Assembly (NCBI GenBank): GCA_030849075.1
Contig: JASAOO010003236.1
Span: forward strand, 1-31,108
Source of the DNA: Zelonia costaricensis
Taxonomy: Eukaryota > Euglenozoa > Kinetoplastea > Trypanosomatida > Trypanosomatidae
Direction: 5' to 3'
Length of the DNA: 31,108 nt
The position numbers were made by a program, and so were the translations under genes. Within the stretch, counting starts at the first letter, position 1, and each line of letters begins with the position of its first letter. Below, piece by piece: positions 1,735 to 30,783 of the stretch. Under the pieces are notes generated by a model that saw only the letters and a list, made by a program, of their open reading frames with translations, ran no database searches and was not told the origin of the DNA.

Positions 1735-3762
1735 TTACTCGTCCCCCTCGCGGCGATCCGGCTGCCGCTCCGCGGTCTTTACCACCTCCGCCTTCTTCTT
1801 CTCGTCCTTCACCTGCGCGTGAATCGCGTGCCCGTTCACGTCAAGGTCGTCGCAGATCCGGACACGCGGCAGCAGCACAAAGGACAGCGGGATGGTGGCG
1901 CACGGCATGCCGAGGTGGCCAATGATGATCAGCCAGCGGACGTTGCTGAAGTCGCACGGCACCGTCGTCGTGACGGGGAAGCGGAACTCGATCAGCAGCG
2001 AGCCAATTGCATTCGACATCGTCTGACCAAGGTTGGCGAAGCCGGCCATCAGCGCGTAGATCATGCTCTCCGAGCCGCGAGGGCACAGGCGCGACATCAG
2101 CAGCACCACCGGCATGTACGACAGCATATAGCAGATCTGGTAGATGATGGCATCACCGCAGATGTACATGGCATGGTCGGGGATGCCGATGTACAGGTTC
2201 CAGCGCTCGACCATGACGAGATCGAAGATGGACGCAAGGATCTGCAGCCCAACAGCAACGCACATCGTCACCTGGTAGTTCATCTTCGAGAACACATAGT
2301 TGAACATCGCCACGCCGAGGATGCCGCCAATGTTCTGAATCACAGCACCCACGGTGTTGTAGAAGACGTAGTCGAAGTGCGGGCCACCCGGCAGGCACGC
2401 CTCGTCCGCGAGGTAGAAGCTGTCCAGCGCGCCAGGGAGCTGGACGTACAGCACGAAGAAGACGTACGTGAACACGTTTGCCTTGGCAATCACGCGCGGC
2501 AGCGTCAGGAAAGCCGCAATGATGCAGACGACGGTGAGCACGATGCAGGCGTACATCAGATCCCACGTCGTGCCCAGGATCGTCACGCACACCATCGTCA
2601 CGACGCTGCACGTCATGATGACGCAATAGATGACCACCTTCCAGTTGCGCGTCACCACCTCCTTGTTGACCTCGAAGGCACCGCACAGGCACCTTGGAAT
2701 CACGAGCTCCTCCTCCTCCTCCGCAACATCCAGCATCGCCACGCGACCCACCTCTGTGTCCGTCTCGCCCAGCCCCAGCAGCTCCCGGTCGCCCTGCTGT
2801 GCCTCGTCGAACTCGCGCTCCGGGTGCAGGTCCTTCGGCTCCATCGCGCCCACATCCGGGGCATCATCAGAGGACTGTGTGGCAGCCACACCCGCCTCCG
2901 CGCGCGCCTTGTCCAGCGCAGCCTTCATGTCCCGCATGTCCTGCAGCCGCTCGACACGGTTCGGCTGCTCGCCGTACCAGTTGAACACAAAGAACACGCC
3001 GCTCACGAACTGCAGTGCTGCGGAGATGAACACGCCGATCTGCATCTTGCCGCTGTCCGACAGCGGGCCCTGGATCACCGAGGCGATCAGCGTGCCCAGG
3101 AGGATCCACACCCAGATTGTGCTCACCAGTGAGGGCCCGGGCACGGGGTTGCGGCGGATCAGGCGGCTGTAGTGGCCCTCCGACAGGATGTCCACATTTG
3201 CCTTGCCGAGGCAGGTCAGAAAGATGAAGGCGGCGGCGGGGTTGCCGGATGCCGGGTTTGCCGGCAGCACACCGTACGCAACCGCGAAGGCCGCGCCGGC
3301 CACGCATGAGAACAGCATGTACCACCGCTTCGTGTAGCCCATGAAGGCGAATGTGTCCGTCAGCATCGCGACAAACGCCTTGATAGACCACCCCATCGAG
3401 TACAGAGCAGCCAGGCGCTGGTAGCGCGTGCCGTCCAGCCCGAAGCGCTTTACCATCATCGGCTGACGGGAGAAGCCAATGATCTGATCCGCAATACCCT
3501 TGAGCGAGAAGTAGCATGCGTTGAGGGAGAGTACGAACACCGGCCCGTAGCCCTCCACGGCGTGCCCCACCACGGGGATCATGCGCACCCACGGACAGAC
3601 CGCGAAGAGCGCCTCCGCTCCGGGGTGCACGATGGTGCCATCAGCGGCAATGCGGCGGCCGTCCTCCGTCATGTGCGGCTGGTGCTCGTGAGGGGCGATG
3701 TTGTTGTCCAAGTCGTTCGGCGCCGCCTCGCGCCCCTTTTCGCTGTCCTGCGGGCTGGACAT
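1735..3762 (-). CDS. Folate/biopterin transporter (BT1/FBT family)
   Basis: A 675-residue polytopic membrane protein of the folate-biopterin transporter family, a branch of the major facilitator superfamily. In trypanosomatids, which cannot make pterins, these proteins import folate, biopterin or related compounds at the plasma membrane. Hydrophobic segments fall into two halves (about residues 70-265 and 370-635) split by an acidic cytosolic loop (265-365, with a run of glutamates near 348-352). The family-typical segment CPRGSESMIYALMAGFANLG is at 560-579, and a GY-K-R-Y loop near 142-148 is also conserved. The ends are hydrophilic; the C-terminus is lysine/arginine-rich. The start is the first ATG; the frame extends upstream only to a GTG at 3819. 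Substrate (folate, biopterin, S-adenosylmethionine or other) cannot be told from sequence. It is the last gene of the unit in this window, and no tandem copy is visible to its right. Confidence 0.94.
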   Translation of the reverse strand: MSSPQDSEKGREAAPNDLDNNIAPHEHQPHMTEDGRRIAADGTIVHPGAEALFAVCPWVRMIPVVGHAVEGYGPVFVLSLNACYFSLKGIADQIIGFSRQPMMVKRFGLDGTRYQRLAALYSMGWSIKAFVAMLTDTFAFMGYTKRWYMLFSCVAGAAFAVAYGVLPANPASGNPAAAFIFLTCLGKANVDILSEGHYSRLIRRNPVPGPSLVSTIWVWILLGTLIASVIQGPLSDSGKMQIGVFISAALQFVSGVFFVFNWYGEQPNRVERLQDMRDMKAALDKARAEAGVAATQSSDDAPDVGAMEPKDLHPEREFDEAQQGDRELLGLGETDTEVGRVAMLDVAEEEEELVIPRCLCGAFEVNKEVVTRNWKVVIYCVIMTCSVVTMVCVTILGTTWDLMYACIVLTVVCIIAAFLTLPRVIAKANVFTYVFFVLYVQLPGALDSFYLADEACLPGGPHFDYVFYNTVGAVIQNIGGILGVAMFNYVFSKMNYQVTMCVAVGLQILASIFDLVMVERWNLYIGIPDHAMYICGDAIIYQICYMLSYMPVVLLMSRLCPRGSESMIYALMAGFANLGQTMSNAIGSLLIEFRFPVTTTVPCDFSNVRWLIIIGHLGMPCATIPLSFVLLPRVRICDDLDVNGHAIHAQVKDEKKKAEVVKTAERQPDRREGDE

Positions 3763-4773: not shown

Positions 4774-6312
4774 CTACCGCCGAACGTTCACATGCCCGAG
4801 CAGAATCTTCGTCACCTCCCTCTCGTGTGTGTCGCTGCCGCCACTGCCGCCGCCGCCGCCATTGCGGCCGTGGTGGCGCCGCGCGTCCCTGGTTGAGAGC
4901 TGCATCGCGCGGGAAGCCGACATCGACGTTCTGGAGATGCCGGAGCTGTACCCGCGTGACCGAGCCGAGTCCATGGCAGAGCGCCGCGTGCTGATCAGGC
5001 GCTGCTGCTCCTGCTGAAGGGTGCGCAGGTGCACCGCGATTTGGGCCTCCAAGGCGAGCACAGCGCCCAGCACTGCCTCGCTCGGCCCCACCCCGTCGTC
5101 ACCGAAGCCGCTCGCGGGCTGCACCGCGGCCGTACTGCCATCTGGCACGTTCCGCAGACACGTCGCCACGCTCCGAAGCAGCTCCACGTCCTCCGGCTGA
5201 GTCGGCTGTGACGGTGCGGCGGCGCTGCTGTCCAGCAGTCGCCTCGCCACGCGGAGGCTGCCGAGCAACTCCTGCGCCGCGGAGCCGTTCTGCGACAGCG
5301 GCGCCGCTGCAGCCGGTGCGATGGCGGCCTCCGGTGCAGGGGCCGCCGATCCCGTTAGAGTGCTGAGGCTGGTGGCGCTGCACAGGCGACGCAGAAGCCC
5401 GCCGCCACTACCGCTGCTCTTGTTGTGACCCGGTGCCGCGTCCGCGGCAGAGCCTGTTGTGGGCCCGCCTGTGCGCACGAAGGAGGTCTCCGTGGCCAGC
5501 GCGATCCACTCCATGTCCGCCGGCCCCACCGCCGCTCCCTCCCCCCGCACCGCGGCACCGCCGTCGCCGCGCACGGGACACGAAAAGCAGGCGAAGGGCA
5601 GCCGCGCCGTCGCCGGCGTCAGCGCCGCACTGCCGCCACTCGCCCGCGCCACCTCGTCGTCGTAGACGATAGCGAGCACGAAGCGGGTGGCGGTGGGCGG
5701 CAGTAGTGGACTCTGGTGTAGGAGCAGCTGGAGGCTCTGCGCGATGGCCGCGATGTCGCTGCTGCCATCCGTCACCGCCTCGCCCTTGGCCTTCTTCGCA
5801 GCGCCGCAGCCCTCGATGGAGGGCGACGACGGGCCATCGACCCGCGGGGGCGCCGCTGCAGGACCGCCGTTGCTGCCGTAAGAACGGGGCCGGCATCGCC
5901 CACTGGTGCACACGACGTAGCAGCCGACCACCGCCGTCTCCGGCATCACGGCGCTGAGCTGCTCGCGGTGCTGCACCGCCGCCTGCCAGTCCACGTCCCG
6001 CGTCAGCAGCTGGCACAGGAAGCCCACGTCGCCGCTCGCACTGACGGACACGAGGGCGCCGGTGTCGGGGCGGAGCCGCAGCGGGAGTTCAAACGCGGCG
6101 GAGACGGTGGTGGCGGTGCCGTCGATGGCGTGGGCGGCGCGGTCGCCGCCCTCACTGGGGCCTGCGGTGGCCGTGGTGCCCATCAGCAGGCCTACTGTGG
6201 GCAAGTACGTCGCCGCGGCCGTGCCTGCCGCGCCGCTGTGCTGCAGCCGCGCACGCGTCACGTGATCGGCAATGCTCAGCAGCACCAGCGGGTGCACCGT
6301 GATCGCCGCCAT
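4774..6312 (-). CDS. MPN-domain protein, inactive, CSN6/Rpn8/eIF3f-like
   Basis: A 512-residue protein starting directly with an MPN (Mov34/JAB1) domain: ITVHPLVLLSIADH at residues 4-17 matches the opening of CSN6 (COP9 signalosome) and Rpn8 (proteasome lid). The strand 'GLLMG' (41-45) and 'AAFELPL' (72-78) fit the next conserved elements. The metalloprotease signature of active members (HxH-x7-SxxD) is absent; the equivalent site reads VVGCYVVCTSG (128-138), so no deubiquitinase or deneddylase activity is expected. A helical segment at 345-392 (leucine-rich, ending LRNVPDG) fits the C-terminal helices of MPN-minus subunits. Alanine/glycine/serine-rich insertions (145-185, 220-260, 280-345) make it longer than the usual 300-350 residues. 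I favour CSN6 over Rpn8 because the lid subunit is normally well conserved, but eIF3f/h is also possible. The start is the family start; an upstream ATG at 6621 lies beyond the likely splice site. Confidence 0.75.
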   Translation of the reverse strand: MAAITVHPLVLLSIADHVTRARLQHSGAAGTAAATYLPTVGLLMGTTATAGPSEGGDRAAHAIDGTATTVSAAFELPLRLRPDTGALVSVSASGDVGFLCQLLTRDVDWQAAVQHREQLSAVMPETAVVGCYVVCTSGRCRPRSYGSNGGPAAAPPRVDGPSSPSIEGCGAAKKAKGEAVTDGSSDIAAIAQSLQLLLHQSPLLPPTATRFVLAIVYDDEVARASGGSAALTPATARLPFACFSCPVRGDGGAAVRGEGAAVGPADMEWIALATETSFVRTGGPTTGSAADAAPGHNKSSGSGGGLLRRLCSATSLSTLTGSAAPAPEAAIAPAAAAPLSQNGSAAQELLGSLRVARRLLDSSAAAPSQPTQPEDVELLRSVATCLRNVPDGSTAAVQPASGFGDDGVGPSEAVLGAVLALEAQIAVHLRTLQQEQQRLISTRRSAMDSARSRGYSSGISRTSMSASRAMQLSTRDARRHHGRNGGGGGSGGSDTHEREVTKILLGHVNVRR

Positions 6313-6439
6313 CGTAGGTGACGTCACGTCGTGGGACGGCGTAGACGGCGAAATGCGATGGCAAGTGGTGCGGCGGCTCCTATGAACACGCCCAAGTGCG
6401 TCGCGTGGAGCGGCGTGGGTTGATAGCGTGCACACCGCT

Positions 6440-6482
6440 CTCGCGTACGCGGCGGGAAGTGAAGCGAAAAAAGGGGAAGAAG
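6440..6482 (-). promoter_or_regulatory. Candidate trans-splice acceptor of the MPN gene
   Basis: A pyrimidine-rich tract on the minus strand (6482-6452, including six consecutive T) is followed by the first AG at 6441-6440. The resulting 5' UTR is 127 bases and excludes the upstream in-frame ATG at 6621, which supports the start at 6312. Confidence 0.55.
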
Positions 6483-6620
6483 CTATTGCGCCGCTGCACG
6501 TGAAGTGCCGTTTTTCGGGGGGCTCTTCTGGGCTCGCTGCGCGTGTTGCTACGGTACGCTGCAGTGGGCGATGTCGTGGCATGCGGCGTCCGTCATCACA
6601 AGGGAGGACGCGCAGGTGCA

Positions 6621-6646
6621 TGTGTGTGTGTGTGTGCGTGTGTGTG
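6621..6646. repeat. TG microsatellite
   Basis: TG repeat with one CG interruption between the MPN gene and the WD40-channel gene. Confidence 0.88.
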
Positions 6647-7268: not shown

Positions 7269-10200
7269 CTACCGCGCGTCGGCCGACACTGCTGCCACGG
7301 CCCTGGCGAGGGGCCGCAGTCGGGCCTCGTGGTCGGTCATCCGCGCCTGCGTGCGACGCACAACCGCGTAGAGCGGCGTGAGGCGCTCCTGCACGCGCTG
7401 GATGCCGTACTCGAGCCGCCGCCGCCGCTCCTGCTCCGCCGGGTTCTGCGTGCGGTGGTGCTGCTGCTCGTAGTGGTACATCCACGTCAAGGTGTTCCAC
7501 GCCAGCCGAATCACGCTCCGCGCAAACGGGGTGCGCGCCGGCTCCGGTACGAGCAGCAGGAGGTCCGTCTGCCGGACGCGCGGCTCCACCAGCGCCGCCG
7601 CGCCGGTCGCCGCGTCACCTGTGCGGCCCGCGGCGTCCTCGGTGGGCGAGGCCGCAGCGGGAAAAGCGATGGAGAAGGTGCCGGCGAACGAGACGGAGGT
7701 CGAGTCGCGACTTTCGCGCCGTCCGCGGGCCTGGGCGTGTCCGCCTCCGCAACCCCCGTTCCCGTCCGCCCCGCCGCGACCGGCGTCGACAAGACCGCCG
7801 GAGCCGAGCACCGTCATGAGGTTCGGCGACGACGCCAACTCCGTCGACGCCGTGCGGCTGTGGCGGTGCCGAGGGAGTTCATCGGACCCGACGTCGCTGG
7901 CACTGCCCCGGCGCGACCCGCGGCCACTCCACGACCGTAACGACGGCAGCCCGCCACGCCGCACCGCGCCGTCTCGGCCGCTGATAATGTTGATGTCGCC
8001 GCCGTGCCCAGCGCCACCCGTCATGGTCCTGCGGTTGACGTCCCACTGCCGCTGCTGGGGCTGGGGCTGGGCGTGGTCGTGGTCGTGCTGCAGCAGCTGT
8101 AGGCGGCGCCACAGATGCTCGATCAGGACGCTGCGGTGCTGCCCCATCCCCAGCGCCGCACGGGGTGCACTCACGGCGGCGGCGGCGGCGGCTTCTGCCT
8201 TGCCACTGCCGTTGCTGGTGTCGCTGCCGATGCTGCTCGTCAGGACAGGGGCGGGGTCGGCTGCTGCGCCGTCCGCGCTCTCCAGCGACGCGGTGACGGG
8301 GGCGGACTTCACTGGACTATCCGGGGCAGAAGACTGGGACAGGGCCCGCTTTGACGGCGCCGCCGACGCCGTCGCAGGAGCAGCAGCAACGGCAGAGCTC
8401 GGCTTCAGAGAGGTCCGCTGCCGTATCAGTGCGACCTGCTGCTGCACGTCTGACCACCACTTGGCGAGCAGCACGCGGGCCGGGATGCTGGGCGTGGTGC
8501 GCGAGGCGGCCTCGAAGCGCTCCGACACGATGGCCACGACGTACACGTAGAAGAGGGCGCGCACCACATAGTTCACTATGATAACGAGGAAGCGCGCCGT
8601 CACCTCGCGGTCGTCCGACAGCGGTGGGCCCACGCCGTACGGCAGCGGTATAACGCCGCCGACGTACAGCAGCAGCTGCACAAACGCGTTGGACACGGAG
8701 CCGAAGGTGGCGTGGGTCGACCCAAAGAGGCAGTGGAAGGCGATGGCGGTGCCCGTCACGCCGAGGACGAGAAGCACGAGGCCCACCACGATCGGAACTC
8801 GAATCTCCCGCACCACGACGCGCATAATCTGCAGGAAGGGGAACCAGTGCGAAGACAAGACCGTGACTTCGGCAAAGAAGAGCACGCAGTGCACCGACGC
8901 GGCGTTGGACAGGGCGTGGAAGGCCAGCTCGACGCTGTTGAGCTGCGACAGCACCGTGCGCACCACCGGCGGCGCGCTCAGCGAGGGTATGGTGGGGTTC
9001 TCCGTGCCCGGTATGACGGACGGCGTCGTCGCCGTCAACGCAGCCATGGCGAACTGCACGAGCGATGTCACCTCGTGCGTGCGGCTCAGGGCAATCCACC
9101 GAATCGAGAAGCCCACCAAGACGAGCCCCGACACGGTCGTCGCCACCTCCAGCAGCACGGTCCCGGACAAGAAGAACTCCAGTAGCTCCTCCACGTAGTA
9201 CGCGACAATGGCGTCGTAGACCACAAAGCCGAGCTCGACGAGCAGGAGGGCCAGCAAGATGGCCACGCAGGCAGGGATCAAGTAGGCGCTGGAGTTCCCG
9301 TCGGGGTTGTAGCGGGAGAAGGACCGCATGTCCGTCGTGGCCAGCCACGCGCCGGAGACGGGGATCTCCAGCGTGTAGTGCAGCCGCGCCAGCGTCTGCG
9401 AGTGTACGTGGTAGCCGTAGAGCAGCACGTCGATGAGCCGCGTCCGGAGCGGGTCGAAGAGAACCGAGCTGATCTGCGACAGCGTGGCCAGCGCGGCCTC
9501 CATGTTGGCCGCTTTGTCGTTGAGCACGTCGATGGGCAGGTCGACGGTGTACCCAGCACTGTCGTAGTGCCCCGCCACCCCGGTGAAGGCGATGCCGGCG
9601 CCGGAGGTCATGTACGGCACGCAGCCCCTCACCGACGTCGCCCCGCTCGAGCTGACGCCCTCGCTGTCGCTCCCGGCGCTGGCAGGGGGCGCGGCAAAGT
9701 CGAAGCACATTGGCGACGTGGCCTCCGTGTTGGCCCTGAGCGGGCCGTAGCACGGTGGCCCCCCGTCGCCCCCTCCCCCGGACGCCGTGGCATTCGCGGG
9801 CCGGACGAGGTGGCGGTTCCACGTGCAGCTGCGGTTGTGCACCTGCCGCACACGCATCCGCATCCGGGTGAGCAGCACCACGCCGCCCGGCATGGCAGCC
9901 ACATCGCCCACGAGGGTGTGAGCAGCGGCGCTGTCGGTGGCCGCTGCCGCGGCGTCCGGTACCAGCTCCACCTCCACCGGGGCCTGCGCGTTGTGCAGCT
10001 GGTCGAACAGCAGCCGCATCCACGCGGCGAAGTCGGCCACGTTCGTGATGGAGCGGAACGTGTGCGGACGCGCAAAGCCCGGCAGCGGGTGGTTGGCGGT
10101 CACCGCGAAGGTCGTCGCGGCGACGTCGATGGAGTGCAGCGACACCGGGGCGAGGCCCAGCGAAAAGAAAAGTGTCAGAAACGCGGTGAAGGCGGCGGCG

Positions 10201-13181
10201 CACACGGCGCGCAGCACGGAGCGGGCGTTCACCGGGGTCGAGGCGGCGGCACGCAGGCGACGCACCACGAACGACAGCGGCAGCTCCGTGTAGAGCGTCG
10301 CCGTCTCCTCCTCCGTCAACTCCCCCGCCGCGTGATCGCTGAGCACCTCGTCGCGACGCAGACGGGCCCACGGCGTGAGCAGGGCGTGGCCGGCCCCGTC
10401 TAGCCCCGCGTCCGCAGCCGGCGATGTCGTCAGCGAGCCCATCACGGCGTCGTCGACAGCACCGCCCCCGCCCGCGCTGCGCCCGGCCAAGGCGGAGGCT
10501 GGGCCACCCGCGCGGCTCCAGGGCTGCCCCCACCCAGACGGCCGGCCCTCCCCGTCCTCCCCGGTCAGCGCGCCGGTAGACTGCGGCAGGGCCCGCGGGT
10601 CGCTGTCGTCGCTGGTGAGGGGCACGAGCTCACGCAGGTCCCAGCGGCACATCATGTGGTCGAGGGAGGCGCTGCACAGCTGCGCCCCCTGCCGCGTCAG
10701 GCCCGTGACCGCGGCGGTGTGGTAGAGGAAGGTGGCGCGGTACGTCTCCACGCCGTCCACGCCGCGGCCTCCGCCGGCAGTCGCGGTCGTGGCAATGCTG
10801 CCGGTGCCGGTGATGGTGTTGGAGGTAGTGTTGTGGGCCGCAGCAGCAGCAGCAGGAGCAGCAGCGGCCGTCACGACAGGCAGACCAGCCGCGTAGGCGC
10901 CAAGCGGGAGGGAGCTGCTGCGCGGCCGTGCTGCGCCGTACCCCTCTGCCCCCACGTAAGGAATGGCCTCCGTGTCCCACACGTACAGCTCCCCGCGGGC
11001 ACCGCCAACAAACAGGTAGGCGCCGCAGGCCAGCAAACAGCGAGCCCCGCTGCGGCCCTGCAGGAGCATGTCCGGGTTGCAGATCTCCTTGAGCAGTACC
11101 GTGTGCTGACTCCACTGCGTCGCCCACAGCCGCACCACCCCGTCGTCCGTGGCGGTGGCCAGTGACTGGGTGGCGTCGTCGAGCTGCGCGATGTCCCACA
11201 CCGCGCCGCCGCCCACGGCGCTGCCACTGCCCCGCTCGAGCGCGTCCCCGCTGACGCTGAGGATGCTGGCGCTGACGGGGCCGCCGGCTGTGCCGCCGCC
11301 GCCACCGCTGCCACTAAATTCGGCGTCGTCCCCCTCCGCCCCAGCCCCGTTCAGCTCGACGCGGCGGCGCCAGTCTCGCGCACCAGCCTCTCCCGCGGCG
11401 GCGGCGGCGGTGGCGGGGGAGGGCACGGCCGCCACGCTGCTCAGGCACCGCAGCGTCTGGGCGTTCCACACCTTGAAGAGGCCGTCGCTGCCGCCCGTCG
11501 CGATGTACTTGGCAGGCCGCAGACTCACGACAACGTTCACAGGGCCGTGGTGGCCGCGGTAGACGTGCACGCACACCCCTGTCAGCGCACGCCACTGCCG
11601 CACCGTGCCGTCGTCGCTGCCGGTGAAGAGGTTGAGACCGACATCGGGCATCCACAGCGTCGCCAGGGCCGTGATGAGACCCCGATGGCCCTCCAGCACC
11701 GTGGTGTTCTGCAGCGTCCGCATGTCCCACAGCCGGGCCGTGTGGTCGGCGCTGCCCGACAGCAGCAGCGACGAGTGCGGCAGCGTCAGCAGCGACAGCA
11801 CCGTCGCCTGGTGCCCGCTCAGCCCGCACAGCCGCCGCCCAATGCGGCTATCCCACACCTCAATCACACCGGACGGGTCGCCGCCGGTGAAGAGCTCGCC
11901 CGTCGGGGCCGACGCCACGGCACACACCCGCGCCCGCGAGCGCCATGACATGACGGGCCGCCGCGACTGCGGGCCGCCAGAGCTGCGCTGAGCCGCCACG
12001 GCCGCCGCTGCAGCCGCCGCCACCGTCGCCAGCGGCGTGTTGGAGGCCCGGTCAACGCTGCGCCGGCGCCACCGCGCGCGCCGCAGCCCACCCACGAGCC
12101 CAGCATCGCCGCCACTCGACCGTGACGTCGTCAGGCCGGCCTTGTCTGATGCCGGCGATACGGCCGAGGAAGCCCGCGGCGACGACAGAAGGGGCGGCGC
12201 GGACTGCCCAAACTCGCGCCGATCACCGCGGCTCCGCGACGGTGCGCCGTGAGGGGCGGACGGGGAAGCGGACGGCGACGGCGACCCCCGCCGCGGAGGT
12301 GCGGTGGCGGCCGCCGTCGAGGCATTCGCTGAGTGCGTGCGTGGGTGCCGCGCGTCCCGCTGCTGCTGCGACTCCGCCTCCACCGTCTGCGGCGTGGCTG
12401 GTCGCACCGCCACCGCGGCATCGCTGTTGTTGTGGCTGCCGTTGTGCTCGGCGCTGGTGCTGCCGCTGTGGCTGCCCAGACCTCCTGTGAAAGGGCGGAG
12501 GCTGTCAGCGCCGCGGAGCCCCCACTTCGCCGGGGAGCTCCGCGCGCGGTGGCTCGGGTGCGGGCGTGAAAGCGGGTGCTGAGAGGGGGTGGTGTCGCTG
12601 CTGCGGTGCAGGCCCGCAGTACGGGAGGAGGCGGAGGCCGAGGCGGACGAGAAGGATGCGGCCGAGGCGCCGCGCCCGTCCTCGTCACTCTCCATGCCGC
12701 TGCGGCTGCGGTTGTTGCCGGACAAGCTCGCACCCGACACGGACGGCGCCACCGTGGACGCTCGCGGGCCGGAGCTGCGGTACATGGCTTGCGAGAGGAA
12801 GCTGCCGCGGCCGTTGCTGCCGCTGCTGAGCACGGACAGACGCGTCGAGCCCCGCCAGCGGGCCACGCCGAAGTCGCGTGTGGAGCCGGGGTTTGACGCG
12901 CTGCTACCGCGCCGGCTACTATAGCTGTCTTGGAAGGGGACGAGACGACCAGCGCTGTGGGAGCGCCGCTCAACGTTCGACGGAGCCGAGCCGCTGCGCC
13001 TAGGTGCGGCGGTACGCGACGGGGTGCGCCGCGCGGGCTGCACCGCGGAAAGGCTGTGCGACGTCGACGCGGACCCGCCACTGGTGTCGCTGCAAGTGCT
13101 GTTGCGGCTGGTGCTGTTCGCGCTGGACGCCGGCGCCGCATCTGAACGACGACGACGCCGCGGGGATCGACGCGGCTGCAT
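7269..13181 (-). CDS. WD40 propeller-polycystin (PKD2/TRPP-like) channel fusion
   Basis: A 1970-residue protein. Residues 1-405 are a basic, serine-rich, probably disordered tail. Residues 410-850 contain seven WD40-type repeats, with blade ends such as EVWDS (441), RLWDM (483), VRQWR (527), FKVWN (569), VRLWA (683), LYVWD (732) and CRWDLR (845): enough for one propeller. Residues 985-1560 look like a polycystin channel: first helix 990-1011, a 285-residue extracytosolic loop with cysteines and N-glycosylation sequons (the polycystin/TOP position), helices near 1298-1328, 1335-1362 and 1425-1445, a basic S4-S5 stretch (1450-1461), S5 1462-1485, pore segment 1491-1511 and S6 1530-1552 ending AIVSERFE. 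The C-terminal tail (1553-1970) is low-complexity apart from a helical end (1885-1965). By family it should be a non-selective or calcium-permeable cation channel, possibly flagellar. Start: first ATG, 27 bases after a strong splice acceptor; the frame upstream runs through CA repeats. Ion selectivity and location are unknown. Confidence 0.85.
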   Translation of the reverse strand: MQPRRSPRRRRRSDAAPASSANSTSRNSTCSDTSGGSASTSHSLSAVQPARRTPSRTAAPRRSGSAPSNVERRSHSAGRLVPFQDSYSSRRGSSASNPGSTRDFGVARWRGSTRLSVLSSGSNGRGSFLSQAMYRSSGPRASTVAPSVSGASLSGNNRSRSGMESDEDGRGASAASFSSASASASSRTAGLHRSSDTTPSQHPLSRPHPSHRARSSPAKWGLRGADSLRPFTGGLGSHSGSTSAEHNGSHNNSDAAVAVRPATPQTVEAESQQQRDARHPRTHSANASTAAATAPPRRGSPSPSASPSAPHGAPSRSRGDRREFGQSAPPLLSSPRASSAVSPASDKAGLTTSRSSGGDAGLVGGLRRARWRRRSVDRASNTPLATVAAAAAAAVAAQRSSGGPQSRRPVMSWRSRARVCAVASAPTGELFTGGDPSGVIEVWDSRIGRRLCGLSGHQATVLSLLTLPHSSLLLSGSADHTARLWDMRTLQNTTVLEGHRGLITALATLWMPDVGLNLFTGSDDGTVRQWRALTGVCVHVYRGHHGPVNVVVSLRPAKYIATGGSDGLFKVWNAQTLRCLSSVAAVPSPATAAAAAGEAGARDWRRRVELNGAGAEGDDAEFSGSGGGGGTAGGPVSASILSVSGDALERGSGSAVGGGAVWDIAQLDDATQSLATATDDGVVRLWATQWSQHTVLLKEICNPDMLLQGRSGARCLLACGAYLFVGGARGELYVWDTEAIPYVGAEGYGAARPRSSSLPLGAYAAGLPVVTAAAAPAAAAAAHNTTSNTITGTGSIATTATAGGGRGVDGVETYRATFLYHTAAVTGLTRQGAQLCSASLDHMMCRWDLRELVPLTSDDSDPRALPQSTGALTGEDGEGRPSGWGQPWSRAGGPASALAGRSAGGGGAVDDAVMGSLTTSPAADAGLDGAGHALLTPWARLRRDEVLSDHAAGELTEEETATLYTELPLSFVVRRLRAAASTPVNARSVLRAVCAAAFTAFLTLFFSLGLAPVSLHSIDVAATTFAVTANHPLPGFARPHTFRSITNVADFAAWMRLLFDQLHNAQAPVEVELVPDAAAAATDSAAAHTLVGDVAAMPGGVVLLTRMRMRVRQVHNRSCTWNRHLVRPANATASGGGGDGGPPCYGPLRANTEATSPMCFDFAAPPASAGSDSEGVSSSGATSVRGCVPYMTSGAGIAFTGVAGHYDSAGYTVDLPIDVLNDKAANMEAALATLSQISSVLFDPLRTRLIDVLLYGYHVHSQTLARLHYTLEIPVSGAWLATTDMRSFSRYNPDGNSSAYLIPACVAILLALLLVELGFVVYDAIVAYYVEELLEFFLSGTVLLEVATTVSGLVLVGFSIRWIALSRTHEVTSLVQFAMAALTATTPSVIPGTENPTIPSLSAPPVVRTVLSQLNSVELAFHALSNAASVHCVLFFAEVTVLSSHWFPFLQIMRVVVREIRVPIVVGLVLLVLGVTGTAIAFHCLFGSTHATFGSVSNAFVQLLLYVGGVIPLPYGVGPPLSDDREVTARFLVIIVNYVVRALFYVYVVAIVSERFEAASRTTPSIPARVLLAKWWSDVQQQVALIRQRTSLKPSSAVAAAPATASAAPSKRALSQSSAPDSPVKSAPVTASLESADGAAADPAPVLTSSIGSDTSNGSGKAEAAAAAAVSAPRAALGMGQHRSVLIEHLWRRLQLLQHDHDHAQPQPQQRQWDVNRRTMTGGAGHGGDINIISGRDGAVRRGGLPSLRSWSGRGSRRGSASDVGSDELPRHRHSRTASTELASSPNLMTVLGSGGLVDAGRGGADGNGGCGGGHAQARGRRESRDSTSVSFAGTFSIAFPAAASPTEDAAGRTGDAATGAAALVEPRVRQTDLLLLVPEPARTPFARSVIRLAWNTLTWMYHYEQQHHRTQNPAEQERRRRLEYGIQRVQERLTPLYAVVRRTQARMTDHEARLRPLARAVAAVSADAR

Positions 13182-14283: not shown

Positions 14284-17200
14284 TCACGCGGGGTTGGCAG
14301 GGGAAAGCGAGGCTGGCGGCGGCGCGGGCGTGGCGGCGGAGAGGACGACCTTCTCGACATACTCGAAGATCAGCCGCTCCAGCCACGTCGTGCCCTCCAT
14401 GCGCACCTGCCAGTGCGACGGCACCACCGGCGACGCGCCGACGCGGCCGCTGCGGCGGCCACCCGCCGCGGCAGCGCCCCGCCCCTTCAAAGCGTGCACA
14501 TCGTTGACAGGCAACCACTCCACGATACCGCCGCCCAGCACTCCCGCGCCAAGCTCGCCACCGGACGCGTTGCTGGAGCTCGAGGCGGGGCAGGAGCTGG
14601 AGCGGGTGGTGAAGGAGGGGTCGGTGGAGGACGTGCGCGAAGAGGGAGAGGAGGAGAAGCGCGTCGAGGCGCCCTCACCCGCCGCGCCGCCCGCCGCCGC
14701 CGCCCCGTCCATTCCCCGAGCAGGCGAACCCGTCTTGTCGGCCGAGAGCGCCGCGACAACCAGCAGCGGCGTCTGGCGGTTGGCCGCGAACGTCAGCGAG
14801 GCGTGCGGAGGGGCGGCGGCCGGTGGGTGGGCCGGCGGCATCGATGACGTCGCCAGGGGCTGCCACGGCGGCGATGCCGGCTTGCCCTTCTCGCGTGACA
14901 TCCCGGCGCTGCGGTCGCCCACCGACTCGGCCCAGTGGCGGGCATCGACCTCGCGCGTCGCCGTGGCCTCGTCGTCTGCCGCGCCGCGGCGGCGCTCACG
15001 ACGGCGGTGCTGCCGCGGTGCCTCCTCCTCAGACCCATCATCACTGTCGTCTCCATCGGCCCCGTCATCGCCGTCCTGCCAGTACTGCGTCACGACAAGG
15101 CGAGGCCGCCGCCACACCGCCGCCGCGCCCTCCATGAACACAGCGTGGCTGCCGCGCCGGGTCAGCACCGTCGTGATCCAGGGGTTGGCTTGCAGCAGCG
15201 AAAAGGGCAGTGTCGCGGTTGGCGCCACAGGGTCGTCGCGGGCGTGCACGAGGAGCGTCGGCACGCGGATGCGCTGGATCAGCGCGGCGTGCTGGGCCGA
15301 GCGCACCCGCAACTCGACCAGCGCGGCGGCCTGCGACGACAGCGCGGGGGTGCGGACGGAGGCGAGGGGCGGGTACGGGGTGGGCGGCGGCGTCGGCGAG
15401 CCGGCGGGGGCGGCGGCAGCGGCCGGGGGTGATGCTCGGAGCAGCGGGTATGCGTCGTAGTGGTACACCGACGACGCGGCGGATGTGGTGGCGACGGCGT
15501 GCGACGCCGGCGACGGCGCGGACGTGACACTGTGCGACAAGGCGCTGGCGCTGGGCAGGGTGGGGGCGAAGGGGGAGAGCCGCAGCTGCGGCGCCGGCAA
15601 CATGGACGTCATTGCCGTAGTGGGGAGGTCCGCGTACGTGGCCGAGGCACTCACGTTCCGCCGCAGCTCGCCGCTCTCCGAGGCATCATCGTGAGCGGAG
15701 CCGGCGTCAACCGACGCCCTGCGTAAGCCGGCACCGACGGAGTTCTCTGGCGTCGGCGTCGCCGCGGAGGCGGCCGGAGGCGCTTCGCCGTCGCTGGAGG
15801 TGCCGCTGTACGCGCGCACAGGACCCGCAAGCGTGGCGGCGGGGCCGGCAGCCACCACCCCAGCCGCCGCCGCGGCGGCACCACTCTCTGCACTGTTGGC
15901 GGCGGGTGACGGGAGCGAAAACGCCGGCGCAGATGCCGCCATCGCCAGCGTACTCTGGTGGGGGCGGAGCAGGACGCCGCCGTCGGCACTCTCCGAAAGC
16001 CCTGCGGCCCCCTGCCGTGCAGCCGCCGCAGCGCCGCCGCCGCTGGTTGGCAGCCACGCGACCTGCCGCGCGTTGGGCGACACCACCTGCAACGTGCACG
16101 CGGCGATGACGTCCTCCGTGGACATGTGCGACCACGTGCGGTACAGCGGCGAGGCGGACAGTGACGCGGTGGTCGCTCCCAGCGGCGGCCGGTGGGCCGG
16201 CGAAGTTGTCGCCGCGAGCAGGCCTGCGCCGTCGGCGTCCACGCCGTGCGCCACCGTGAGGCGCCGACGTCCACCTCCAGCGGAGGCGCCACGCGGTCCA
16301 CTGGCACCCCCACCGCTGCTGCTGCTACTGCCCGCGGCCCCTCCAGTGAGGGATGCAGGGGTCGGTGCCACGTGCGTCGGGCCGGTGCCGTTGCCGATGT
16401 GCGTGGGCGGGTCGACAGATGGGGGCGGTGGAAGGTCGCGGACGGTGACGTTGGCCGTGTCGAGCCGTTGCTGCTGCTGCGCCTCCGTCATCATGGGCGA
16501 CTGCGCCAGCTCTTCCCAGTCCGTCGCCGTCTCCAGCCGCGGCAAGCCCCACAGCACCGGAGACCTCTCGTGGGGGCGGTCCTGCCGGACGAGGAGCGGC
16601 GAGGACGACGCCCACGTCACTGCGTGGTGTGGCACGTCGAGGCTCGAATGCGTGGCGGCTGCGGCAGGCGCCGCATCCCCGCTCCGCGCCGACGCCACCG
16701 ACACCTCTGCCGTGTTCACGGTGCGTGCAAACTTGGCCGGCGTCTCCACCCGCAGCCCGTGCTGCGGCAGCGGTGGATGCGGCGCGGCGAAGGACGACGC
16801 CGCCGTCGGGTGCGCCTTGGCCGCGGCCCCCGCCGCCGATACGGGCTCCGCCTCGACGCTCCACTCGCTCTCCTCGTCCGTGCGGCGCGAGGGTGGGGCA
16901 GAGAAGCTGTCCGCGGCGCTGGCGGACATGACGCCGTCTGCAGCGTTGCCACGCCAGCCCTGGCGCGCCGCGTAGTGCGCCGGTGCCTGCCGACGCATCA
17001 GCGGCGACGACGATCGCGCCTGCTGCTGTTGCGGCGACGGACGACGCACCCCGCGCTGGTGCCGCTGATGCGTCCACAAGATCGTAGCCCGGTCTAGCCC
17101 GCGCTGCGCACGGTTCACCTCCTCGCGCGCCTCGCGAAAGACCTGGAGAAGGTGGTAGAGGGAGTTGCACGGTGGCGGCACCGCCGCCGCCGATCTCGTC

Positions 17201-20200
17201 GTCTGGGCGGAGGCGAAGGCCCCCTCCGCGCGGTGGGCGCGGCGAGACCAGTCACAGACGCGCCCGCTCTTCGGCGATGCCGCCTGCTGCGGTGCGTGAT
17301 GGTGGCGGTGAAGCAGCAGCGCATCCGCGATCATCTCCATCCTCGTCATGAGCAGCAGCAAGCGCGCCGGCCCTGTGGTGAGGCGGGAAAGGATGCGGGG
17401 CATGTGGGGGGCCGCGTACATCTTCGCCGATCCCGGCGGCGGCGGCGACGCTGACGGCGACGACGTCGGCGGCGTCCGCGTCGCCCGTGAAGAGGCGAGC
17501 GGGCTGGCCGCGCTGCTGCTGACGATGCTGCCGGTGCCGGTCGTCATGATGGTTGTCGCGAAGGAGGTGCGGCGGGTCGTGCCAAGTGGCGATGGAGCCA
17601 TGCGGGGGGCGAGGGGGTGGCGGTGCTGATGCTGCTCCTTCAACATCATCGCCTCGGTGGGCTGCTGCGGCAGGAGCTGGAAGGCGGAGGAGAGGGTGTG
17701 TGACAGACAAACCACCCCATCCAGCCGTGGCGCCGCCACCGCCGCCTCCGCCGGGGCGGCTGGGGCTGGTGCGTGCGCGTGGTGCTGCTGCGTGATGGCC
17801 AGCTCCAGCAGCGGGCTCGCCGCCTCGGACCAGCCCACCGCGACGAGGTACACGGGCCTGCGTGAGGCGGGGGTGCTCGGCACCGGAGGCAGCGACGCGG
17901 ATGGCGCGGAGGGCTCACCGCTAGAGGCGGTGCTGAGTGGATTGCCACGCCGGCCCTCACGGACACCCCCTTCTGCGGTCGCCGCACCGCTGTTGGTGGT
18001 GGTGCCCGTGATCGACTCGAGCTGGGTGCGCAGCCGCTCCACAATACGCCGGAGGTCGCGCAGGGTCAGCGGCGGCATCGAGATGTCGTCTGGCTGCCCC
18101 GCCTCTGCGGCCGGCGCGCGCAGCTCCACGACGGGGACCGCCGCATACCACTCGGGGGCTGCGGGGCCCGTGTTCGGACCAGCACATTGCGGCCCCGCGG
18201 CGCCCTCGCTGCTCTCCCGACTGCTGCTCCTGCTCGCTCTGCGAGTGGTGGGGCTCACGGGAGAGTACGGGGCCTCGGCGGTGTTGGTGGGCGTCCTCGT
18301 CCCCTCCTCCTCCTCTTCGTCGCCCTTGCCGTTCCGCGTGGGCGTGGCAAGGCTGGACTGCCACTGCCCTGCGAGGGTCATCAGCTGGCAGACATGGCTC
18401 AGACGCGCCACGGCATGGGGGTAGAGGCCGCTGCCCTGCAGCAGGGACGGGCAGAGGAGCAGCACCACCACTGGCGCGGTGCTCGGCGATGGCACGGTTG
18501 GCCGCCGGCCGTGCAGCCAGTACACCCCGACAGTCTTCTCGCATGCCGCACTCGTGTTGGCGGATGCCGAGAACGGAACGTGCGTTGCCGTGGGCAGCGA
18601 TGCCGCCGCCGCCGCCGTCGCCGTGGTGGTGTTCGGCGAGCCGCTCGCCAGCCCGTGTGCGGTCACGGACACCGACGGCACCGTGAAGGAGTTCGTGGCG
18701 GTGGCGCTGGTGTATGCGTTCGCCTCGCCGGCCCCGGCGGGGGTGTCGGTGAGCAGGCGCTCGAAGGTGTGCTGCGTGTCGGCCACGTAGCCGTCGATGC
18801 GAGCGTGCACGGCGGCCTCGAGGCGGCGCAGGGGGTACAACAACGAACCGCCGCCGCGCTGCGCGGACACCGCTTGTGGTGGGGATGACGTCCGCGGCAG
18901 CGCCGCCGTGTCGGTGGAGCCGAGCACCAGGGCGTACACGACGCTCTGCAGTACGCGCAGGCAGAGGCGCATCGGCTGCACTAGCGCGGCCACCACGAAG
19001 GACATCGCGGTGCTCGCGCCGCCTCCATGCCCGGCCTCGTACGCCCGCCGCTGGACCACCAACCCCGGCGACGGCAGGCGCTCCCCCCTCTCCTGCACGA
19101 CGGAGTTGTCAGGGTCCAGCCTCGCCGAGCCCCAGCCGCGGCAGCACAGCAGCTCCGCGGCAATGCGAAGCAGTGGGTCGACGAGGGCGAGCAGCAGCTG
19201 CGCACGGGCGTGCACGGCGTACCACGGCGGCAAGAAGCCAAGCTGCCCGCGAAATGGCGGGCCGGGCGCCACCGCCACGTCGACGGAGCCAGACGGCTTC
19301 TGCGCGGCCAGAGGCTGGAACTGCACGGCACACCACGCCGGCACGGCACGCCGCATCTCCCCCTCTGCAGCCACGCCTGCCGCGTAGGCTCTCGCCAGGG
19401 CAGCGCGCCACGCAGCCGGCACGAGCCGCCCACGTCCCCACCGCCGCGCCGTCCCCACCACTGCGCGTGTGGCTGCCGCCACGTCGCCCTGCGGCACCGC
19501 CACCGCCGCACACACCGGGACGCCTTCGAAGAAGACGTCCGTCACGCAGGGCTGCAACGGCGCGCCACCACACGCACCAATGCCACCAGCACCGCTCAGC
19601 CGGCCGCTGAGGCTGTCGGACGCAGCGTGGAGGCGCGCGGGAGGGCGGGCGGTGGCGGCAGGTCGCAGTAGCGGCGTGCAGGCTAAGCTGCCCATCCCCG
19701 CCACCTCCGGCCCAGCGCCCCCTTCCCCGTTGACACTGACGGCGTTGAGGGAGAAGACGTCGCGCAGGCCGGCGTAGGCGCTCGCGGCCGCGCCACCTGC
19801 GGCGCGGAGCCCGCCACCGCCATCGTTCCCGGTGGCGGCCGTGCCGTTGCGTGGCATGGCGATCTCGGCGGGGGAGAGGGAGAGGGGGCGCTGCACGGTG
19901 GAGGCGGACGGCGTGGTGGCCATCGTGTAGTTCGACCACGACCCCTCCGAGTCCTCCTCCCCCTCCCACGCCGCCGCGGGTGGGGAGGGGCGCATCGGCA
20001 GGGCCGGCGAGCTCGAGCCGAGCATCCCGGCGCGGCGCGGCGCCGCCGCGGCAGGGCCGCTGTTGCCCCCATGACCGATCCCGCCACCGCCGCTGCTACT
20101 GCCGTCGAGCGGCGAGCGCATGCCACGGCCCGGGCTGCCGGGGCCGTGCCCGGGGGACGAGGACCACGTCAGGGAGCCGGGCATGTGCGGCCACAGCCGC

Positions 20201-20673
20201 GACGAGCCCGAGAGCGACGCGCCACTGCCAGCGCCAAGGCTGCCGCCCGCGGCGTGCATGGAGTGCGTGGTGTGGAGGGAGCGGACGCCCAGCACGGCGC
20301 GGCGCGCTGACACGCACCGGCGCTCCTCGGCGTCCCGGGCCGTGCCGTCGAGCTGCGGCGACGACGCGGCGGTGGGCTGCTGCAGCAGTGACTGCATCGA
20401 CTGCAGCGCGCAGAGCTTCACGATGTCGAGATGCTCACTCTCGGGCGACGCCTCGCGCTCTTCGGCCGCCTTGTCGTAGTGGTAGGCGGTGGGCAGCACC
20501 TGCTGCACCTGGGCCTCGCCACGCCGCCCCAGCCACGAGCTCCGCGTGTCATGCCGCTCCACCAGGAAGTACGCCGGCAGGAACAAGAGCAGCTGCACCG
20601 TGAAGAGGAGCAGAGTGCGGCCGGCGTAGTAGACGCACGTGATGACGTACGAGAGGGTGGTGCCAATGGCCAT
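14284..20673 (-). CDS. Giant membrane-anchored alpha/beta hydrolase, EMB8/YheT/ABHD1-3 type
   Basis: A 2129-residue protein. The N-terminus (5-37) is a strong hydrophobic segment, probably a membrane anchor, followed by HDTRSSW-LGRR. The hydrolase core is scattered: a 'VVVLLLCPSLLQGSGLYPHAV' type strand-loop at 735-755 (oxyanion region of the fold), the nucleophile elbow VAVGWSEAA with Ser949, the acid strand VPTLLVHARDDPVAP with Asp1813/1814, and the histidine loop RRGSHAVFMEG with His1843. GWS at the elbow, DDP and the GSH-FMEG loop are typical of the EMB8/YheT/ABHD1-3 esterase/lipase group. Between Ser949 and the Asp lie about 860 residues of mostly Ser/Ala/Pro-rich sequence, and another ~600 low-complexity residues precede the core, so the protein is about five times the usual 320-450 residues. 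The C-terminus keeps an ordered WLERLIFEYVEKVV helix (2097-2110). By family it would act on lipid esters at a membrane; substrate unknown. Start: first ATG after the splice acceptor; upstream extension reaches only a TTG. Confidence 0.82.
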   Translation of the reverse strand: MAIGTTLSYVITCVYYAGRTLLLFTVQLLLFLPAYFLVERHDTRSSWLGRRGEAQVQQVLPTAYHYDKAAEEREASPESEHLDIVKLCALQSMQSLLQQPTAASSPQLDGTARDAEERRCVSARRAVLGVRSLHTTHSMHAAGGSLGAGSGASLSGSSRLWPHMPGSLTWSSSPGHGPGSPGRGMRSPLDGSSSGGGGIGHGGNSGPAAAAPRRAGMLGSSSPALPMRPSPPAAAWEGEEDSEGSWSNYTMATTPSASTVQRPLSLSPAEIAMPRNGTAATGNDGGGGLRAAGGAAASAYAGLRDVFSLNAVSVNGEGGAGPEVAGMGSLACTPLLRPAATARPPARLHAASDSLSGRLSGAGGIGACGGAPLQPCVTDVFFEGVPVCAAVAVPQGDVAAATRAVVGTARRWGRGRLVPAAWRAALARAYAAGVAAEGEMRRAVPAWCAVQFQPLAAQKPSGSVDVAVAPGPPFRGQLGFLPPWYAVHARAQLLLALVDPLLRIAAELLCCRGWGSARLDPDNSVVQERGERLPSPGLVVQRRAYEAGHGGGASTAMSFVVAALVQPMRLCLRVLQSVVYALVLGSTDTAALPRTSSPPQAVSAQRGGGSLLYPLRRLEAAVHARIDGYVADTQHTFERLLTDTPAGAGEANAYTSATATNSFTVPSVSVTAHGLASGSPNTTTATAAAAASLPTATHVPFSASANTSAACEKTVGVYWLHGRRPTVPSPSTAPVVVLLLCPSLLQGSGLYPHAVARLSHVCQLMTLAGQWQSSLATPTRNGKGDEEEEEGTRTPTNTAEAPYSPVSPTTRRASRSSSRESSEGAAGPQCAGPNTGPAAPEWYAAVPVVELRAPAAEAGQPDDISMPPLTLRDLRRIVERLRTQLESITGTTTNSGAATAEGGVREGRRGNPLSTASSGEPSAPSASLPPVPSTPASRRPVYLVAVGWSEAASPLLELAITQQHHAHAPAPAAPAEAAVAAPRLDGVVCLSHTLSSAFQLLPQQPTEAMMLKEQHQHRHPLAPRMAPSPLGTTRRTSFATTIMTTGTGSIVSSSAASPLASSRATRTPPTSSPSASPPPPGSAKMYAAPHMPRILSRLTTGPARLLLLMTRMEMIADALLLHRHHHAPQQAASPKSGRVCDWSRRAHRAEGAFASAQTTRSAAAVPPPCNSLYHLLQVFREAREEVNRAQRGLDRATILWTHQRHQRGVRRPSPQQQQARSSSPLMRRQAPAHYAARQGWRGNAADGVMSASAADSFSAPPSRRTDEESEWSVEAEPVSAAGAAAKAHPTAASSFAAPHPPLPQHGLRVETPAKFARTVNTAEVSVASARSGDAAPAAAATHSSLDVPHHAVTWASSSPLLVRQDRPHERSPVLWGLPRLETATDWEELAQSPMMTEAQQQQRLDTANVTVRDLPPPPSVDPPTHIGNGTGPTHVAPTPASLTGGAAGSSSSSGGGASGPRGASAGGGRRRLTVAHGVDADGAGLLAATTSPAHRPPLGATTASLSASPLYRTWSHMSTEDVIAACTLQVVSPNARQVAWLPTSGGGAAAAARQGAAGLSESADGGVLLRPHQSTLAMAASAPAFSLPSPAANSAESGAAAAAAGVVAAGPAATLAGPVRAYSGTSSDGEAPPAASAATPTPENSVGAGLRRASVDAGSAHDDASESGELRRNVSASATYADLPTTAMTSMLPAPQLRLSPFAPTLPSASALSHSVTSAPSPASHAVATTSAASSVYHYDAYPLLRASPPAAAAAPAGSPTPPPTPYPPLASVRTPALSSQAAALVELRVRSAQHAALIQRIRVPTLLVHARDDPVAPTATLPFSLLQANPWITTVLTRRGSHAVFMEGAAAVWRRPRLVVTQYWQDGDDGADGDDSDDGSEEEAPRQHRRRERRRGAADDEATATREVDARHWAESVGDRSAGMSREKGKPASPPWQPLATSSMPPAHPPAAAPPHASLTFAANRQTPLLVVAALSADKTGSPARGMDGAAAAGGAAGEGASTRFSSSPSSRTSSTDPSFTTRSSSCPASSSSNASGGELGAGVLGGGIVEWLPVNDVHALKGRGAAAAGGRRSGRVGASPVVPSHWQVRMEGTTWLERLIFEYVEKVVLSAATPAPPPASLSPANPA

Positions 20674-25100: not shown

Positions 25101-25196
25101 GTACTCCGCCCCACTGCCGTAGGCCGCGCCCGCCGTCGCAGCGGCTGCACCCTGCGGCGCGGCTTGGGTGTAGTACGTGTTGTAGGTCTGGCTCAT
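22125..25196 (-). CDS. SEC23: COPII coat subunit Sec23 (Sar1 GTPase activator)
   Basis: A 1023-residue Sec23, the inner COPII coat subunit that pairs with Sec24, activates the Sar1 GTPase and drives ER-to-Golgi vesicle budding. After a low-complexity region (1-198) come: the conserved opening LRWTWSCYP (203-211) and YTPLYP (241-246); zinc finger C263-x2-C266 and C284-x2-C287; trunk domain starting PAFIFVVDTC (332-341) with LVGLISFG (366-373); the GGP-TRGPG motif (511-518) and the LDQVGVMEM strand (572-580); beta-sandwich 640-740; helical domain 760-870; and a gelsolin-like domain 880-975 with the conserved ILSYRYPYPRF (942-952). The Sar1-stimulating arginine of Sec23 lies in this last segment in yeast; Arg951 is a candidate but not aligned here. 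Typical Sec23 is about 760 residues; the excess is the Q/G/A/Y-rich N-terminus and a C-terminal tail. Start: first ATG, 54 bases after the likely splice acceptor; the frame extends upstream only to a GTG. Trypanosomatids carry more than one Sec23; which paralogue this is cannot be said. Confidence 0.95.
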   Translation of the reverse strand: MSQTYNTYYTQAAPQGAAAATAGAAYGSGAEYYGGGSAPAAMNGGYGGYSAQAQQPASSGAWGTSYQTASAYGGSSGAAPAPGYYGAQSGAQSNGGGYQAGGHDAYAAAPGINGAAPAMSAYNAPAAAAPPMPQPQQQSSQGYYAPQPLHPQPQPQHQQPPQLDGYYGGGGGNSNNMAAAAPYQASTVATAPAATNATDENGLRWTWSCYPTTTKGKTKENPSAATLTMPPEMVLPMSCMYTPLYPIEPSHMVLGAMVDELRCSNCGAFCSVHSQREVGKYWVCLSCKRRNTFQANTGVTEQHPALMYETVEYVLAPPRATSAAPPPPAAVPAFIFVVDTCIPAGEMASLRASLLESLPCLPRNALVGLISFGATVAVWELGSKPGVAVRKCYLLRGNAANTAEALQGMLQVSESHPVRGRLLAPLCEVEDALTALISEMEEDGAAVSSSRRPLRATSTAVEAATYLMEALAAPPLPAAYMAGLDRNAKAAVAAAAAAANVKMGKILLFTGGPCTRGPGAVISTDKADMMRFHRDIIEGDTPYYEAAFSFYNALEPRLTAANTCLDVFAQSLDQVGVMEMRRCIDNTGGTLIVEDETTDIMFLESLRRYWQRCDLRPGTEGGDAGAQEDYSANCGFAVHLEVNTSVGTLLRGALGPCNVDVEANKRGPARLTSPLEVGVGGTTRWCVSALDKGMTLSFVFDTATADGKQGGIESAHERRFIQFATRYTTPRGEQRLRVTSTVQPIAPPTAPPSFYTSAGAFDQTCAATVVARMAVSILERHPGKWDDAKRWLDTLLVRFVRRYASFTPGQANTLQLDPCLSLFPSFIYNLRRSEYFMVLNISPDETTFKRHWLLRESVDNCMLMIQPTLDSYDIERPYASPVQLDSNSLRHDNIVLMDAYFNVHVMWGSTIYQWIEAAYHENPEYANFAELLEAAEQDAQGILSYRYPYPRFSRTDADGSEARHVKTRVNPATNYQSSGAQYGTGPNGAPDQPDVIYTDDASILTFMASLKKAVVAADDKSKA

Positions 25197-30775: not shown

Positions 30776-30783
30776 NGGGGGGG

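Follow-up and report, generated by a model that had tools for sequence, protein, structure and literature searches.

Polycystins attract study as sensors in cilia, and their intracellular anchoring and gating are a live question. Polycystin-1 combines an 11-helix body with a giant ectodomain. In polycystin-2 and its TRPP relatives (PKD2, PKD2L1) a first helix, S1, precedes a large loop and helices S2-S6, with a pore segment before S6. Scaffolds such as ODA16/DAW1, WDR5, LIS1 and beta-TrCP are built on a WD40 propeller, and we know of none among these four that carries a channel. The selectivity filter of polycystin-2 is given as LGD in PMC6832002, and this account and PMC12183636 describe for polycystin-1 a filter unlike that of polycystin-2 and S6 arginines in the pore of its 1:3 complex with polycystin-2. 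For kinetoplastids, a 2011 survey reports TRPML/TRPP homologues (PMC3194816), and a review of trypanosomatid calcium channels credits L. major with a single TRP gene and a single TRPML gene, tabled as LmjF.07.0910 and LmjF.26.0990 (PMC6027440); the term "WD40" is absent from the main texts of both articles. A 2012 table of candidate autophagy proteins annotates XP_002954593.1, from the green alga Volvox carteri, with WD40, PKD_channel, COG2319 and Ion_trans (PMC3407069), the order of the domains not being evident from the table row and the accompanying passage making no remark on the pairing.

The gene described here pairs the same two types of domain as the Volvox entry. The window (the whole stretch of DNA analysed, 31,108 nucleotides, contig C426 of a searched genome of 28.67 Mb in 755 contigs) holds on its minus strand an open reading frame that runs from an ATG at 13181 to a stop at 7269-7271 and encodes 1970 residues with no internal stop; frame 1 of the plus strand is interrupted by stops across 7269..13181. 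Its segments are listed in Table 1. The initial annotation had placed a WD40 propeller and a membrane region in one uninterrupted frame, which is confirmed, and the orthologue search recovered three relatives that keep both halves in a single frame: P0002, which is 93% identical, and the nearest named relatives, from Novymonas (P0003) and Leptomonas (P0004), whose NCBI names mention WD40 only. The fusion is more than chance because both halves share one frame in all three, and as judged from these sequences it is real and conserved in Leishmaniinae-type trypanosomatids. Another family member, P0044, lies on a 3.45-kb contig and begins in the linker, so that it is uninformative on the fusion. 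Two scans of viral contigs gave no further relatives. Since the orthologue search, which used shared words, missed the Leptomonas protein despite its place in the query, we do not claim absence from Leishmania or Trypanosoma.

Table 1. Segments of the gene and of the protein it is predicted to encode, in window coordinates.
Feature	Residues	Position	Strand	Basis
Whole gene, 1970-aa ORF	1-1970	7269..13181	-	ORF translation; in-frame orthologues
Low-complexity N-terminal tail	1-406	11964..13181	-	Orthologue identity (just 32% and 22%)
Seven-bladed WD40 propeller	407-862	10596..11963	-	Pfam, identity, AlphaFold2, Foldseek
Low-complexity insert separating blades 4 and 5	583-660	11202..11435	-	
Low-complexity insert separating blades 6 and 7	746-822	10716..10946	-	
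Linker	863-961	10299..10595	-	Coding GC3 0.88; strong pyrimidine-tract/AG acceptor not found
S1	989-1012	10146..10217	-	Hydropathy and alignment
Loop with polycystin-domain pattern	1013-1296	9294..10145	-	Pfam on orthologues, profile alignment
S2	1297-1321	9219..9293	-	Hydropathy and alignment
S3	1333-1364	9090..9185	-	Hydropathy and alignment
S4	1417-1446	8844..8933	-	Hydropathy and alignment
S5	1463-1486	8724..8795	-	Hydropathy and alignment
Pore-helix/filter segment	1487-1525	8607..8723	-	LLLY 1503-1506 without variation; filter residues 1508-1510 differ among orthologues
S6	1526-1554	8520..8606	-	Hydropathy and alignment
NYxxR motif in mid-S6	1537-1541	8559..8573	-	Five of five family members; not in L002, L003
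Conserved post-S6 segment	1555-1579	8445..8519	-	10 of 25 positions invariant in five of five
Conserved C-terminal region	1866-1970	7272..7586	-	64%/59% identity to Novymonas/Leptomonas

All identifiable genes of the window lie on the minus strand. They include a BT1-family transporter (1735-3762, Pfam E 2.1e-154) and a Sec23/Sec24 coat protein (22125-25196, Pfam E 7.8e-37). A 615-aa ORF at 4774-6621, also on the minus strand, shows a weak JAB/MPN match under the cut-off (E 0.026). Another minus-strand ORF, of 2129 aa at 14284-20673, contains no Pfam family over the cut-off; by eye, a membrane helix can be made out near its N-terminus, together with alpha/beta-hydrolase-like motifs that long low-complexity stretches break up. 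At 30776 an N stands within a run of G, with a sequence of about 80-90 bases copied on either side, probably an assembly gap or a collapsed tandem repeat. A genome search with the channel half found a single full copy of the gene and, elsewhere, one weak 55-residue match (contig C697, E 0.0045). The latter was rejected as a relative, the family profile giving it no support (hhalign E 0.38).

The seven WD40-like repeats noted in the initial annotation are well supported. The window protein matches PF00400 (WD40) at E 1.5e-26; HMMER counts three WD40 stretches in it, five in P0003 and four in P0004, and by eye seven WD-type units can be discerned over residues 407-862. AlphaFold2, run for residues 405-866 on five sequences, yields 28 strands, seven times four, and thus predicts a propeller of seven four-stranded blades. 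In this model pLDDT is at least 70 at 270 of 462 residues, most low-confidence residues lying in the inserts and at the end; of the five models, two were worse (pLDDT 49). Foldseek searches with the propeller model returned WD40 structures at target TM-scores (TMt) of up to 0.86, among them the designed seven-bladed 7big (TMt 0.85) and 5yzv (TMt 0.86), with designed eight-bladed propellers at ranks 2-4 by E-value (TMt 0.65-0.69). The fold is held in common with ODA16/DAW1, WDR5, LIS1 and beta-TrCP. The ranking of such scaffolds is generic and gives no information on the partner of the window propeller, and the high position of ODA16/DAW1 among natural WD40 matches was set aside as carrying no meaning.

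The membrane region (residues 989-1554) comprises one helix, a loop of 284 residues, and five more helices, the last of which is preceded by a pore-like re-entrant segment. Hydropathy peaks lie at 992-1010, 1302-1320, 1342-1360, 1424-1442, 1464-1482 and 1531-1549, with a pore-like one at 1499-1517; weaker peaks at 764-782, in a low-complexity insert, and at 1086-1104, within the loop, were not read as helices. Hydropathy and alignment thus bear out the polycystin layout, with a loop of about 285 residues, that had been proposed. By analogy the loop would be extracytosolic, and its cysteines 1119, 1144, 1159 and 1187, invariant in five of five sequences, would suit a folded extracytosolic loop domain. 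The loop ends in the pattern Y..GY...TR...Y...E...G, also found in L003, a gene of the same genome detected by PKD_channel. Residues N1537, Y1538, R1541 and Y1547 of S6 are kept in five of five family members; L003 and a second paralogue, L002, have glycine where R1541 stands. At the filter, with positions assigned via alignment to polycystin-2, the triplet is GGV in the window protein and GGI, SAC, AAS or ASS in the other family members; it is MRQ in L002 and TST in L003, both without an acidic residue. The window protein differs from polycystin-2 in having GGV instead of the LGD filter expected of an orthologue, in its S6 arginine and N-terminal WD40 propeller, and in its scores under the Pfam cut-offs. 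For it, 25 of 26 Pfam families were listed, none of them an EF hand. The C-terminal region reads as helical by eye. AlphaFold2 on four sequences gave an unusable model of the channel region (mean pLDDT 37), with which Foldseek found no match at E<=0.001, so the fold of the channel half rests on sequence profiles. Aligning propeller, channel and paralogues jointly misplaced the partial rows, and this alignment was excluded from folding.

The polycystin ancestry of the membrane half emerges from its relatives. Residues 960-1580 of the window protein alone have no Pfam match at E up to 10, a result that, taken alone, would by the initial annotation's own criterion refute the polycystin-type channel, and the channel half finds no relevant match in the PDB either as a single sequence or as a four-sequence profile. 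When the four cropped channel regions (window, P0002-P0004) were scanned, PKD_channel (PF08016) was matched by one of the four at E 3.1e-5 and Polycystin_dom (PF20519) by two of the four at a best E of 0.0058; these were the sole Pfam families at E<=1, and the window member matched none. On PKD_channel the whole Leptomonas protein reaches 21.6 bits where 22.4 are required, and on Polycystin_dom the P0044 fragment reaches 15.0 bits where 23.6 are required. Neither these two nor the window protein reaches the gathering cut-off for PKD_channel or Polycystin_dom, and for this reason the window protein does not count among the curated Pfam polycystins. An NCBIfam search gave no match. The initial proposal is partly supported: the fusion and the polycystin ancestry hold, the latter through matches of the orthologues and not of the window protein searched by itself.

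Searched with PKD_channel, the genome yields three loci, L001 (585 aa), L002 (940 aa) and L003 (1028 aa), the window locus being absent; Polycystin_dom detects nothing in the genome, controls likewise. L001 (contig C636) is of mucolipin type, with PKD_channel and Ion_trans matches and mucolipin-3 as best PDB match (4.1e-10). For the membrane half of L002 (C637) the best PDB match is PKD1L3 (2.3e-4), followed by bacterial ion transport proteins (0.0014). L003 (C151) passes the PKD_channel cut-off as a locus in the genome search, unlike in hmmscan of the whole protein (19.3 bits, under 22.4), and its PDB matches are non-significant (mucolipin-2, the best channel, E 0.12; polycystin-2, E 1.4). 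Thus L003, the main link to polycystins, is itself divergent. L002 and L003 are two more divergent polycystins in which the acidic filter triplet is missing.

In single BLASTP comparisons the window channel half matched L003 at E 2e-5 and L002 at E 0.45. The family profile (P0001-P0004 and P0044, of which hhalign kept four after its redundancy filter) aligned to L003 at E 4.2e-10 (score 85.4, 469 columns, collinear from loop to S6; one comparison) and to L002 at E 5.9e-6 (score 54.1; one comparison). The top score was 30.7 (E 0.0088) among 48 window-preserving shuffles of L003 and 20.6 among 12 full shuffles. With L003 as genome query, the first match after itself is the window locus (E 0.0017), then the locus of L002 (0.019). 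The loop-to-S6 unit of the window protein is homologous to that of L002 and L003, which, unlike the window protein, are without WD40 (Pfam scan) and without NYxxR in S6. At the C-terminus, similarity to L002 and L003 falls short of significance (E 0.12 and 0.074). Taken together, these profiles make it very probable that the membrane half is a divergent polycystin relative and not a mucolipin or another Ion_trans channel.

Conservation is unevenly distributed along the protein. Identity to the Novymonas/Leptomonas orthologues is 93/79% in blades 1-4, 82/67% in blades 5-6 and 77/63% in blade 7; it is 64/59% in the C-terminal 105 residues, 46/39% in the loop and 42/34% in S4-S6. Fast evolution of the pore could reflect relaxed constraint, and the protein is best called a putative channel, given a filter position that varies among orthologues and an invariant arginine inside S6.

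The explanation that we tentatively favour, and for which the mechanism is inferred, is a propeller-tethered, non-canonical polycystin subunit. This reading is based on the propeller's 93/79% identity against 42/34% in S4-S6, the drifting filter, the invariant N1537, Y1538 and R1541, and the precedent of polycystin-1. By sequence and model, the gene encodes one predicted membrane protein in which the WD40 propeller is followed by a divergent polycystin (TRPP) module, made up of S1, a TOP-like loop and S2-S6 with a pore segment, and by the C-terminal region. With its propeller on the cytosolic side, it would arrive at the cell or flagellar membrane, where the loop and C-terminal region may co-assemble with the same cell's other polycystins, those on C151 and C637. 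The strongly constrained propeller would dock on an intracellular partner and so position or gate the complex, to which the protein's own S5-P-S6 would add little selectivity. That the propeller tethers the protein is a fair guess, favoured by its high conservation.

Polycystin-1 and PKD1L3, non-canonical subunits of heteromers, likewise have no acidic filter triplet, and polycystin-1 has positive residues inside S6, as the window protein does. On the other hand, L002 and L003 also lack the acidic triplet, so this feature is not specific to the window protein. R1541 is a different residue from polycystin-1 R4100, standing, by hand alignment, about five residues N-terminal to polycystin-2 N674/polycystin-1 R4100, and it may not face the pore. 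The non-significant C-terminal similarity to L002 and L003 also weighs against the subunit reading.

A self-sufficient, polycystin-like cation channel, forming conducting homotetramers whose propeller only fixes their location, is possible and somewhat less likely. S1-S6 are complete, the pore helix and TOP-like loop align to the PKD genes, and the LLLY of the pore helix is invariant, all in its favour. The difference in filter triplet among orthologues, the invariant arginine in S6, and the place of S4-S6 among the least conserved parts with predicted structure argue against it. It is unlikely, and less likely than the conducting homotetramer, that the protein is a former channel turned membrane receptor or anchor, in which the loop would sense or bind outside, the propeller signal or dock inside, and the pore be dead. 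The propeller and C-terminal region are indeed more conserved than the pore unit, and the four loop cysteines are invariant, but the six-helix layout and the conserved post-S6 motif have been kept over 34-42% identity, which a dead pore need not do.

That the membrane half derives from a different kind of six-helix protein (a mucolipin, another Ion_trans channel or a transporter) and has a polycystin layout by chance is very improbable. The failure of the window protein alone to match a channel model or a relevant PDB entry, and of the four-member profile to retrieve a PDB channel, would fit this idea. The channel regions of the orthologues, however, match polycystin models only (Pfam, E<=1), and the family profile gives E 0.29 with the mucolipin-type L001 (one comparison) and 0.053-0.71 with ten Ion_trans loci, which are ten of the eleven genome matches, the eleventh being the L001 gene. 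The controls BT1, SEC24 and reversed paralogues gave hhalign E 0.15-0.59, the BT1 transporter standing at 0.59. Least probable of all, and largely refuted, is an annotation or assembly fusion of two adjacent genes read as one ORF, an idea prompted by the many long spurious ORFs in this GC-rich DNA, because Novymonas, Leptomonas and P0002 keep one frame, GC3 is 0.83-0.91, as in coding DNA, across all five gene segments, the linker included, and the splice acceptor between the halves that would have indicated separate genes was not found, residues 861-975 containing no AG with at least 17 pyrimidines per 20-base stretch within the preceding 60 bases.

The propeller-tethered subunit may be taken one step further. 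It is conceivable, but doubtful, that trypanosomatids independently invented a polycystin-1-like subunit, in which an invariant charge in S6 would act as a plug, the filter would drift freely, the cytosolic propeller would replace the giant ectodomain of polycystin-1 as input, and an intracellular scaffold would set the state of the heteromeric channel. If this is true, an intracellular scaffold, for example a flagellar one, and not an outside ligand, would control a heteromeric polycystin channel.

The initial annotation knew of no described protein with this domain order. In the open-access literature we found no description of a WD40-polycystin protein apart from the Volvox table row, which names both domain types without making their order evident (PMC3407069). 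What appears to be new is the conserved WD40-polycystin fusion in trypanosomatids, the domain pair having been in print earlier as a Volvox annotation. The Volvox pairing may be an independent fusion, share a common origin with this one or be a gene-model artefact, and a model with both domain types raises the question of whether flagellates made the pairing more than once. The kinetoplastid TRPML/TRPP genes of PMC3194816 and PMC6027440 belong to the same superfamily as the window protein and may include an orthologue of it. As both named orthologues are stored under "WD40" names only, the family may extend the short list of trypanosomatid channels, and a docking module built into the protein would offer a direct handle on what fixes a polycystin complex inside the cell.
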